Source: Nitrospirota bacterium
Lineage (GTDB): Bacteria; Nitrospirota; Thermodesulfovibrionia; Thermodesulfovibrionales; Dissulfurispiraceae
Direction: 5' to 3'
Length of the DNA: 45,309 nucleotides
NCBI GenBank assembly: GCA_004321915.1
Contig: SCQE01000006.1
Coordinates: 1 to 45,309 of the forward strand
Position 1 is the first letter of the stretch. Every line of letters starts with the position of its first letter. Position numbers and translations under genes: made by a program. Below the pieces are notes generated by a model. It saw only the letters and a list, made by a program, of their open reading frames with translations. It searched no databases and was not told the origin of the DNA. Of the stretch, positions 1 through 2,832 are shown one piece after another.

Positions 1-2
1 GT

Positions 3-173
3 TCTGTTCTTGAAGAGGTAAAGCGTATTATCAGGATTAAACATTACTCATACAGCACAGAGCGCACATATATTCAATGGGCTGAGCGTTTTTTTAATTA
101 TTTGGCCGATACAGGCGGAATGCCGTATTTTAGGGTCAGGCTTGAAAATAGGAATTTAGCATTTATATTCATT
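3..173 (+). pseudogene. tyrosine recombinase (integrase) N-terminal fragment
   Basis: The frame is open from the left edge of the window and encodes a segment beginning VLEEVKRIIRIKHYS and continuing TERTYIQWAERFFNYL. This is the SAM-like core-binding (N-terminal) domain of tyrosine recombinases, and the HYS..TE..Y..W pattern is shared by IntI-type and related integrases. After about 50 residues the similarity ends and the frame runs into sequence antisense to the next gene, stopping at 332. No catalytic domain (R..H..R..Y) follows. I read it as a decayed remnant of an integrase cut at its 3' side; the exact breakpoint (about 150-180) is inferred. The 5' end may continue outside the window. 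Confidence 0.55.
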
Positions 174-182
174 GCATGCCCT

Positions 183-208
183 CCCCCAATCTTTCACGCC
201 ACCTTCAA
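183..208. repeat. left copy of imperfect direct repeat flanking the DUF1828/DUF6978 module
   Basis: CCCCCAAT-C-TTTCACGCCACCTTCAA spans the stop codon of the DUF1828-like gene. It matches 1631-1655 at 22 of 25 aligned positions with one extra base, in the same orientation. The two copies bracket the two-gene module almost exactly. Confidence 0.45.
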
Positions 209-976
209 AATCTTATCTTTCCACTGCCTTCTTCTGCTCCACAGCAGTATTTTAGCCACGTCCGACAAAAGCACTTTTGGCTCATCCGGCCATTCGTTGT
301 CCTCGTCATCCAAAACAGCATACAGCGTATAACCAGCCTCAGGCTTGTTTTTGAGGTCGTAAAACTCCTGAAACACTGTGGCTATTTTTGTCCAGTCTAC
401 AGCCTGTATGGGATGAGGCAAAGGCTCGATGATTGCATTAGCACTTTTTATAAAATACGTTGCATTATATCTCTTGCCTGAATTGCCCTCAACCTGTTTT
501 TTGAATTCAAGATTTTCTTTGTCATGTGCTATCTCTTTAATAAGCTCTTCAACCTGTCTGAAAAAATCGCTTTTGGGCTTCTTGGCCCTCTGGAGAAGCT
601 GAAAATCGCTTATTCTCAGTATTGTATTTACCAGACTAAGCATATCATCGCTGATATTGCCCTCTTTGCTGTGCTTATAGAAAATGCCGTCTGTAAATTT
701 TGTATCGAATGAGGACATTACCGACTTAAGAACATTTGCCTTATTTTCGGATTCCTCTGGGTCTATCTGGTATGACGCAAGATAGCGCAAGGTCTCCCCT
801 TTATCGGAAAGAATGACTTCACCATTCGGCAGGGTTTCTACAAAGACCTGTATGCCGTCAAGGTTAGGGTAAGTAAATGGCGTATTTACGACGAGATAAT
901 GTGACAAAGGGCGGCATTCAAACCGGTCTCCAAAGGTTGTGGCAATGTTCCTTTTTATAACATCACACGTCATCAT
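194..976 (-). CDS. DUF1828/DUF1829-like protein
   Basis: A 260-residue soluble protein. The N-terminal half has the DUF1828 signature: a TPFTYP motif near residue 33, then acidic FVETLPNGE and LSDKGETLRYL. The C-terminal half (about 125-260) resembles the DUF1829 part that often follows. The biochemical function of these domains is unknown; they are common in accessory regions and phage-related islands. The start is the first of two tandem ATGs at 971-976, one base after the stop of the upstream gene, with a GAGG about 10 nt upstream, so the two genes are probably co-translated. It lies between an integrase remnant and a peptidase operon. A toxin-antitoxin or defence role is only inferred from context. 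Confidence 0.75.
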   Translation of the reverse strand: MMTCDVIKRNIATTFGDRFECRPLSHYLVVNTPFTYPNLDGIQVFVETLPNGEVILSDKGETLRYLASYQIDPEESENKANVLKSVMSSFDTKFTDGIFYKHSKEGNISDDMLSLVNTILRISDFQLLQRAKKPKSDFFRQVEELIKEIAHDKENLEFKKQVEGNSGKRYNATYFIKSANAIIEPLPHPIQAVDWTKIATVFQEFYDLKNKPEAGYTLYAVLDDEDNEWPDEPKVLLSDVAKILLWSRRRQWKDKILKVA

Positions 977-977
977 C

Positions 978-1472
978 TTAAAATAACCTCGGAGCGCTTT
1001 TAATTAACGTCGGTGGAATATGCTCAAGATTATACACCAATCCGGCAAGGCTTTGGAAATATTCAAACCACTCTTTGTGGGTCTTGTCTCTGGCAGGTAT
1101 AGCAACCGGAATCGCACATTTATCACCGTTGTCCGGATTCCATATATGCAGATGACTTCCAACGATTCTTGCGCCGCCATGTGCTGGACATGACAAGGGA
1201 TTAATTCGCATATGGATGTCATCAATATCGAGCCGCCGTATATTCTGACCCCGGTAATCCAAGACAAAGGTAAATCTGTAAAGGTCTTCGTCCTGATTAG
1301 CTGTAAGTATAATTCTTGCAGTAGGTATGCTGATGCCGTCTTCGTCAATAAGTATTGAAGACCATTCAAGAAAAGCCTTCCCTTTGTTCTTCCACTTCAT
1401 CTTACTGTCGATCTCTTTCTTTTTTGTAAGGAAATCGCCGACTTCAGTAAGTGACGGCAAAAGCTCAGACAA
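978..1472 (-). CDS. DUF6978-like hypothetical protein
   Basis: A 164-residue soluble protein, first gene of a two-gene operon with the DUF1828-like gene (one base between stop and start). It has no signal peptide or membrane segment. Conserved-looking parts are HGGARIVGSHLHIWNP (about 98-114), with His residues, and a C-terminal WFEYFQSLAGL segment. It resembles the family NCBI calls DUF6978, which I recall as a recurrent partner of DUF1828 proteins; I cannot check that here. The start is TTG at 1470-1472: an in-frame TGA lies five codons upstream, no ATG is available, and a GGGGG run sits 4-8 nt upstream. Function unknown. Confidence 0.65.
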   Translation of the reverse strand: MSELLPSLTEVGDFLTKKKEIDSKMKWKNKGKAFLEWSSILIDEDGISIPTARIILTANQDEDLYRFTFVLDYRGQNIRRLDIDDIHMRINPLSCPAHGGARIVGSHLHIWNPDNGDKCAIPVAIPARDKTHKEWFEYFQSLAGLVYNLEHIPPTLIKSAPRLF

Positions 1473-1630
1473 TGAGACCCCCGATCAATTTGCTATATCG
1501 TACGCATTTTAATGCATAACTATAACAAAAATGTCCTTAAATTTAAAGCATTTGCCGATTCCGCTGTCACTATCCATTCTCTGACTGCCCACTGTTTCTG
1601 TCCTGTCTTTAATTTATGTGTTTATAGTGC

Positions 1631-1655
1631 CCCCCAATTTTCATGCAACCTTTAA
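1631..1655. repeat. right copy of imperfect direct repeat flanking the DUF1828/DUF6978 module
   Basis: The partner of the 183-208 repeat, same orientation, 22 of 25 aligned positions with one indel. It lies in the 211-bp gap between the module and the peptidase start. A degenerate GACTGCC/CACTGTT pair at 1583-1596 in the same gap resembles the heptamer repeats found in the heme genes. Confidence 0.45.
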
Positions 1656-1683
1656 TGGCCTATTGGTATTCGGAAATCAGGTC

Positions 1684-2832
1684 ATGATAAAATCTCTCAT
1701 GGAAAATGGGTTTGCGGACATAGCTTCGTACATCGATAAAGAGCGGTTGATCAATACATTCACCGATCTGATAAAGATAAATTCTCCCTCATTCAATGAG
1801 CGGGAAGCGGCTGAATACATCGCTTCAAGGCTTCGTTCCTTAGGCTGTGATGTGTTTTTTCAGGATTATGGCGAATCGTTCAACCTCATTGCTCATCGCA
1901 ATGGAGGGACAGAAAGCGCTGCGCCGCTTATGCTCAGCGCGCATATGGACACCATAGAACCTACACAAGGAATATCTTTCAGCAACGACGGCTCTGCGAT
2001 AAAAAGCATTGGCAATACGGTCCTCGGTGCTGACGACAAGAGTGCGATAGCACAGATAATCGAGGCGATTACGGTAGCGCATGAAAAGAAACTGCCGGTT
2101 TGCGATATAGAAATTGTTTTTACATCAGCCGAAGAAAAAGGGCTTTGCGGCGCAAAGAACCTCGATTTTAGCAGGCTCAAAAGCAAACACGCATTGGTGC
2201 TCGATTCCGGCGGGAGTGTGGGCAGCATAGTGGTAGGCGCACCTTCACACCATACCTACGAGATGCTCATAACCGGAAAAGCCGCCCACGCCGGGATAGA
2301 ACCCGAAAGAGGTGTCAGCGCAATAAGATGCGCGGCAAAGATTATTGCGGAAGTTCCGGACGGCAGGATAGATGAGGTCACGACCGCGAACATCGGCATA
2401 ATCAAAGGCGGCACAGCCACAAACGTCGTGCCGAAAGAGGTTGTCATAAACGGCGAGGTTCGAAGCCATAATGCCGAAACCCTCGAACAGGTCAAAAAAA
2501 GAATTTTCGATACTGCGAAAAAGATCGCATCTGAACATGGCGCTTCAATCGATATCAATGTAAAAGAGGAATATAATTCATTCAGGATACGCGAAGACGA
2601 TTCTTATCTCAAATTCCTTTCAGAGATTTTTGCATCAAACGGAATAGAGGCGAAATTGGCCATAACAGGCGGCGGCTCTGACGCGAATATTTTCAACAGC
2701 CACGGCATTAAGGCTCTGAATATATCCAACGGCATGCAGAAGGTCCATTCTGCAGAAGAGTTTATATTGCTGGACGACCTGTATAAAGGGTGTCTCATTG
2801 TTTTGGCCACCATAATCTCTTTTCAAAGATAA
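1684..2832 (+). CDS. M20-family (PepT-like) metallopeptidase
   Basis: A 382-residue zinc aminopeptidase of the M20 superfamily, PepT-like subgroup, probably a cytoplasmic di/tripeptidase. The metal-binding set is complete: SAHMDT (His and Asp), LGADDKS (bridging Asp), TSAEEKG (catalytic and ligand Glu), LDSGG (Asp), and a C-terminal VHSAEE His. A lid/dimerisation domain with GKAAHAG lies in the middle. I place the start at ATG 1684 because family similarity begins near there; the frame is open to a GTG at 1618, inside the flanking repeat region. The stop overlaps the next start as TAATG (2830-2834), so the release-factor-like gene is translationally coupled. Substrate not determinable. Confidence 0.88.
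   Translation: MIKSLMENGFADIASYIDKERLINTFTDLIKINSPSFNEREAAEYIASRLRSLGCDVFFQDYGESFNLIAHRNGGTESAAPLMLSAHMDTIEPTQGISFSNDGSAIKSIGNTVLGADDKSAIAQIIEAITVAHEKKLPVCDIEIVFTSAEEKGLCGAKNLDFSRLKSKHALVLDSGGSVGSIVVGAPSHHTYEMLITGKAAHAGIEPERGVSAIRCAAKIIAEVPDGRIDEVTTANIGIIKGGTATNVVPKEVVINGEVRSHNAETLEQVKKRIFDTAKKIASEHGASIDINVKEEYNSFRIREDDSYLKFLSEIFASNGIEAKLAITGGGSDANIFNSHGIKALNISNGMQKVHSAEEFILLDDLYKGCLIVLATIISFQR

Follow-up and report, generated by a model that had tools for sequence, protein, structure and literature searches.

The window analysed here, a stretch of 45,309 nucleotides, is an entire contig (G000:C103) of a Nitrospirota assembly. Near its left end lie a DUF6978-like gene (978–1472, minus strand) and a DUF1828 gene (194–976, minus strand), separated by a gap of 1 nt. 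The first-pass annotation had described the two genes as tightly coupled, and both the coordinates and the gap were reproduced. The features of this end of the contig are:

3–122, plus strand: remnant of a decayed integron-type tyrosine integrase, its N-terminal part of about 40 codons, where the contig ends, from Pfam and TIGR02249 matches
131–158, plus strand: terminal motif GGGTCAGGCTTGAAAATAGGAATTTAG, closing the dispersed repeat on its 3′ side and common to both ends of a Y1 (IS200-like) element in G000:C8
134–267, minus strand: full copy of the dispersed repeat (DUF1828 3′ end plus about 60 nt downstream), holding the left direct repeat 183–208; 95.6 bits with model R2, in whose training set this copy was included
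194–976, minus strand: DUF1828 (+DUF1829) gene, PDC-M24B, 260 amino acids, from profile matches and a structure model
978–1472, minus strand: DUF6978-like gene, weak PDC-M24A, 164 amino acids, TTG start, with R-L-D, N-P and H-x-H kept
1604–1659, minus strand: second repeat copy, decayed or truncated, lying upstream of the module and holding the right direct repeat 1630–1655 and LKVA-stop; 4.1 bits with model R2, E = 0.14
1683–2832, plus strand: M20 peptidase gene, at which DNA homology to a sister species without the module (G001) starts

The product of 194–976 matches the Pfam family DUF1828 above the cut-off (E = 4e-13) and DUF1829 with E = 0.002, and that of 978–1472 matches DUF6978 at 22 bits (E = 2e-4), under the 29.6-bit cut-off. 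Sequence searches of the PDB gave no match for either protein, and P0001 had none among phage records. In the rest of the window, the six large proteins scanned are all housekeeping: a Na+/H+ exchanger with TrkA domains, a NuoF-like protein, topoisomerase I, argininosuccinate synthase, an HD-domain protein and Lon.

A probable divergent member of the PDC-M24 candidate system

The PADLOC profile PDC-M24B matches the DUF1828 protein of the window from residue 9 to residue 256, which amounts to full-length coverage (E = 7.9e-32), whereas PDC-M24A matches the DUF6978 protein weakly and over residues 77–123 only (E = 5.4e-4, 17.9 bits) and does not match its orthologue in L095 at a threshold of 0.01. 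The gene order and the invariant H-x-H of the DUF6978 protein agree with canonical PDC-M24 members, and R-L-D, N-P and H-x-H are invariant across the seven sequences of alignment A10. We read the pair as a probable divergent form of PDC-M24, an already catalogued candidate anti-phage system; it agrees with PDC-M24 in gene order, in tight coupling and in its two families, DUF6978 by the weak match only, and it differs in that its DUF6978 protein is divergent. Orthologous pairs with 69–72% identity, in the same order, are directly observed in three other Nitrospirota metagenome-assembled genomes (L095, L098 and L100). PDC systems are unpublished candidates (PMC11811056), and two others showed no activity when assayed in a native host (PMC12409345). 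Our literature search found no paper on PDC-M24.

Strong matches to the PDC-M24 profiles place relatives of the pair in a type I restriction–modification operon and in viral (prophage) contigs. Within type I restriction operons, relatives sit between an N-6 methylase gene and a specificity gene, both in the genome of the window (C114, L033) and in L027, and the viral-contig relative L169 adjoins an S24-type repressor. Neither the DUF6978 subfamily of the window nor the DUF1828 subfamily linked to restriction–modification was found in the viral contigs searched. The PADLOC match, together with relatives inside hsdM–hsdS operons and in viral contigs, supports the link to defence that had been proposed from the letters of the window. 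As a separate observation, the genome of the window carries a second, canonical PDC-M24 pair (L033, G000:C114:70174-73521), located between a type I methylase and an HsdS-like specificity gene.

The structure model of the DUF1828 protein is of moderate confidence (pLDDT 73; best Foldseek E = 2.7e-3). Its N-terminal domain resembles YbjN and secretion chaperones (8q8o, Z = 10.5; 3cxj, Z = 10.2), and its C-terminal domain resembles PD-(D/E)XK nucleases (Cdn1, Z = 9.5; BstEII, Z = 8.4; Can2, Z = 8.0). Alignments of the C-terminal domain with Cdn1, Can2, BstEII and PspGI extend over 110–123 residues with an rmsd of 3.3–3.8 (Z = 7–9.5), in a part of the model with pLDDT values of 50–83. Because common arrangements reach Z values not far from these, we treat the fold assignments as leads. 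No invariant D...(D/E)xK motif was found in the C-terminal domain in alignments A3 and A9, and the window protein has T in place of the common D of ‘FDF’; the nuclease-like domain of the model is probably non-catalytic. The model of the DUF6978 protein was set aside (pLDDT 45).

We hypothesize from the DUF1828 model that this protein binds its partner and senses nucleic acid, and that DUF6978 is a small effector. The DUF6978 protein, with its conserved H-x-H, would probably be the effector, and DUF1828 its probable partner, the chaperone-like N-terminal domain of which may bind and restrain DUF6978 while the C-terminal domain would sense nucleic acid during infection. The window offers a natural, compact PDC-M24 pair, along with a hypothesis on the structure of DUF1828.

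A dispersed repeat derived from the DUF1828 gene

Imperfect direct repeats of 25 nt lie at both edges of the module (183–208 and 1630–1655), as the first-pass annotation had noted, and agree at 22 of 25 aligned positions with one indel (CCCCCAAT-C-TTTCACGCCACCTTCAA versus CCCCCAAT-TTTCATGCAACCTTTAA). With up to three mismatches allowed, the window contains two occurrences of the pattern, against 0 expected from shuffles, and the whole 3.6-Mb genome likewise two, which makes the repeat unique to this locus. The left copy consists of the last codons, stop and trailer of the DUF1828 gene: it reads ATT TTG AAG GTG GCG TGA (I-L-K-V-A-stop), followed by AAGATTGGGGG. On the same strand, the right copy reads TTA AAG GTT GCA TGA (L-K-V-A-stop), followed by AAATTGGGGG; it is divergent upstream of LKVA and scarcely above background with model R2. 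We rejected neutral target-site duplications as an account of the repeats, the left copy being the gene’s own 3′ end and part of a dispersed repeat.

A tblastn-type search with DUF1828 of 396 Nitrospirota genomes returned one full-length relative at 69% identity and many at 20–30%, along with six stretches at 61–72% identity, all from the last 25–60 residues and lacking the remainder of the gene. Run against about 85,000 genomes, a degenerate DNA pattern hit seven contigs, exclusively from Nitrospirota, three with the complete pair and the others with tails only. The C terminus L-W-S-x-R is common to other DUF1828 subfamilies, so the gene has its share of the repeat, the coding part, by inheritance, and it is from the gene that the solo tails derive. 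Aligned tails run about 65 nt beyond the stop codon and terminate in AAGCCTGACCC(C). In a census, the sequence-only model R1 found the repeat at 21 places in 13 of the 396 genomes, and model R2, run on 19 selected genomes, at 30 places in 15 of them. Eight genomes have two or three same-strand copies that are 0.4–1.6 kb apart, a spacing that, with one to three copies per 2–4-Mb genome, is not due to chance. The repeat was found neither in plasmids (distant blastn) nor in viral contigs (exact pattern), and a literature search for this kind of repeat or cassette returned nothing matching.

Copies of the repeat usually lie directly beside small toxin–antitoxin modules. Those that we observe enclosed by same-strand copies are MNT–HEPN, HicB–HicA, BrnT–CopG, DUF4258–MqsA-like and DUF2281 modules and, in L095, DUF6978–DUF1828 itself. 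Among the modules between or directly beside copies are MNT–HEPN and a DUF2281 antitoxin in G317:C196; DUF4258–DUF2283 and then HicB–HicA in G370:C216; BrnT–CopG and then an Unstab_antitox gene in G260:C45; DUF4258–zinc ribbon in G063:C44 and L096; DUF7718–DUF5647 in L096 and G081:C220; HEPN genes in L094, G022 and G098; and Phd–YafQ in C121 of the window’s own genome. Strict matches to toxin–antitoxin, MNT or HEPN families were obtained for 15 of 30 repeat-neighbour proteins and for 0 of 10 control genes away from repeats, a comparison that is indicative rather than blind, given the hand-chosen neighbours and the few controls. Several copies have no toxin–antitoxin neighbour (G063:C4, G407:C71 and C4 of the own genome), the last of which adjoins a DNA methyltransferase and two genes without assignment. 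The new element here is that the 3′ end of PDC-M24 recurs as a low-copy repeat bracketing toxin–antitoxin and defence modules in Nitrospirota.

The pair of the window resembles type II and MNT–HEPN toxin–antitoxin systems in being small, co-oriented and on accessory DNA, with the same repeats as HicAB, BrnTA, MNT–HEPN and Phd–YafQ, but belongs to no known toxin–antitoxin family, and DUF1828 exceeds the usual size of an antitoxin.

Two gene sets deserve mention in their own right. A small HEPN-type protein followed by a protein of 85–88 amino acids without a Pfam match (MK.A...LADAVAEL.E.LHQKYPGI) recurs at L094 6236-6622, L130 629-1499 and L128 4537-5198, and is a probable new toxin–antitoxin pair. 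At L035 6252-9175 (G000:C4), beside a solo DUF1828 tail, a D12-class DNA methyltransferase gene is followed by genes for a ParB-like protein of 367 amino acids and a 308-amino-acid protein without a Pfam match, possibly an unnamed defence module.

Mobility of the modules and its possible routes

The first-pass annotation had pointed to an integrase N terminus cut off at the left edge. The fragment is present, with matches to Phage_int_SAM_4 (E = 8e-5, under the Pfam cut-off) and to the integron integrase model TIGR02249 (E = 5e-4), but the ‘edge’ is an assembly break, the window being a whole contig. Positions 1–123 are 99% identical to G000:C49:21491-21613; there the contig ends, and the two contigs then diverge. 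The integrase of C49 reads on past the shared 123 bp but is internally deleted, and both copies are broken. A search of the assembled genome for a complete integron integrase gave no score exceeding the TIGR02249 cut-off; the broken C49 copy ranked highest.

That the module is an integron gene cassette, moved by the integrase whose remnant sits at the contig edge, would fit the adjoining integron-type fragment and the cassette-like, co-oriented organisation. Chromosomal integron arrays likewise consist of co-oriented cassettes with a repeat at each 3′ end, carry toxin–antitoxin cargo and vary in order between genomes. Their repeats, however, differ from those described here, which have no attC core sites, hairpins or working integrase, come from the coding end of a gene and number only one to three per genome. 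No RYYYAAC...GTTRRRY (R″/R′) pair was found in window positions 1–1800 on either strand; four tail sequences, all ending before the terminal motif, gave no single-stranded DNA hairpin (z-scores −0.9 to +0.7); and the module is on the wrong side of the integrase. With only broken integron integrases in the assembled genome, a module without attC and a tail without a hairpin, the remnant is not a credible driver. We consider this origin very improbable, and the attC reading was dropped.

A transposase of the Y1 (IS200/RAYT-like) type could instead mobilise the units in trans, with the repeat as its recognition end. The 3′ end of the repeat, AAGCCTGACCC(C), matches both ends of the Y1_Tnp element in G000:C8 (96% and 84% over 28–38 bp), which recalls RAYT/REPIN systems (PMC2817692, PMC3116915), in which a terminal motif of the repeat is likewise common to a Y1 transposase element of the same genome. 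Against this, the motif is absent from the copies in L098, L100 and L094, most copies lack a matching left end, and no hairpin was detected in the four tails, which end before the motif; unlike those systems, the repeat is low-copy, showed no palindromic REP hairpin in its tail, and carries or flanks coding modules. Y1-driven movement appears improbable.

Signs of movement come from comparisons between relatives. In G063:C44, a 2.8-kb array lies between cysG and a gene for a 700-amino-acid protein, in the order promoter-like left segment, repeat, DUF4258–MqsA-like pair, repeat, TPR gene and MNT–HEPN. In G081:C228 the flanks of this array are 20 bp apart without the repeat, an empty site observed directly. 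At the same cysG end, G317, of the genus of G063, has a different insert (an AAA/DUF4143-type gene) and then a displaced 90-bp copy of the cysG 3′ end, 88% identical. The modules that follow the [DUF7718–DUF5647–tail] unit, moreover, differ between L096 and G081:C220. The inserts at cysG and the varying neighbours suggest that modules insert at the 3′ ends of genes and leave displaced 3′ ends behind; the DUF1828 tails look like displaced ends of that kind. The cysG 3′ end is itself an insertion hotspot in this Nitrospirota family (L127, G063:C44; L184, G317:C243; L186, G081:C228).

For the window, G001, a relative of the same genus, is without the module and, rather than keeping both repeats, has no copy of the repeat at all; homology to the window resumes at 1683. 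The outcome named in advance as speaking against the earlier reading thus did not occur, and the description of an accessory gene pair that shows signs of mobility is supported. Of the two flanks, G001 shares the right one only. Its left neighbour, a TolC-type gene, was dropped as a marker for that side, a close orthologue being absent from the genome of the window; because the left flank is not shared, this comparison gives no clean two-sided empty site for the insertion in the window.

The main rival to a cassette mechanism holds that there is no cassette system, and that the tails are leftovers of DUF1828 modules decayed by illegitimate recombination in dense toxin–antitoxin and defence islands with fast turnover. 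In its favour, the tails differ in their 5′ break points, fragments of other genes (HEPN, MNT and the CysG tail) occur in the same places, and no hairpin, attC or recombinase was found. The last 15 codons of the tail have the highest synonymous identity in the gene (0.80 versus 0.54), an excess that is not significant in a maximum-window shuffle test (243 of 2,000) and so fits decay as well; DNA-level constraint on the tail was accordingly dropped as an argument. Harder to reconcile with it are the high-identity fragments, which all come from the 3′ end, the conservation of the downstream non-coding 60–70 nt, the co-oriented copies bracketing single modules, and the recurrence of one toxin–antitoxin pair plus tail with different downstream neighbours (L096 versus G081:C220). 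We regard decay as a real possibility, at somewhat less than even odds.

Our leading interpretation, to which we give a probability of about 0.45, is that DUF6978–DUF1828 is an accessory immunity or toxin–antitoxin-like module of PDC-M24 type, within a pool of toxin–antitoxin and defence cassettes bounded by repeats. The bounding repeat would be the DUF1828 3′ end with its trailer, and recombination between its copies, or template switching from one to another, may be what lets cassettes enter, leave and replace each other; alternatively, a Y1 transposase might act on the GGGTCAGGC terminus. No recombinase is tied to the repeats, and plain recombination or template switching, which needs no dedicated enzyme, is the reading that we prefer, as an inference that is unproven; the cassette mechanism as a whole is plausible and equally unproven. 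A stronger version, in which Nitrospirota possess an integrase-free cassette system that uses the tail of a DUF1828 defence gene as the shared recombination site for these modules, seems unlikely. The locus bears on how very small toxin–antitoxin and defence modules without a recombinase of their own move between genomes and, since the repeat is defined, copies of it bracket modules and one empty site is at hand, makes such movement directly testable in this lineage.

A conserved promoter-like segment of 90–130 nt with two TATAAT-like boxes precedes different toxin–antitoxin modules in five genomes (L122 1160-1287, L126 4004-4127, L123 2040-2129, L187 3028-3110 and, in reverse complement, L127 4792-4915). 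The left segment of the G063:C44 array is seen again ahead of toxin–antitoxin genes in G317, G098, G370 and G081:C115.
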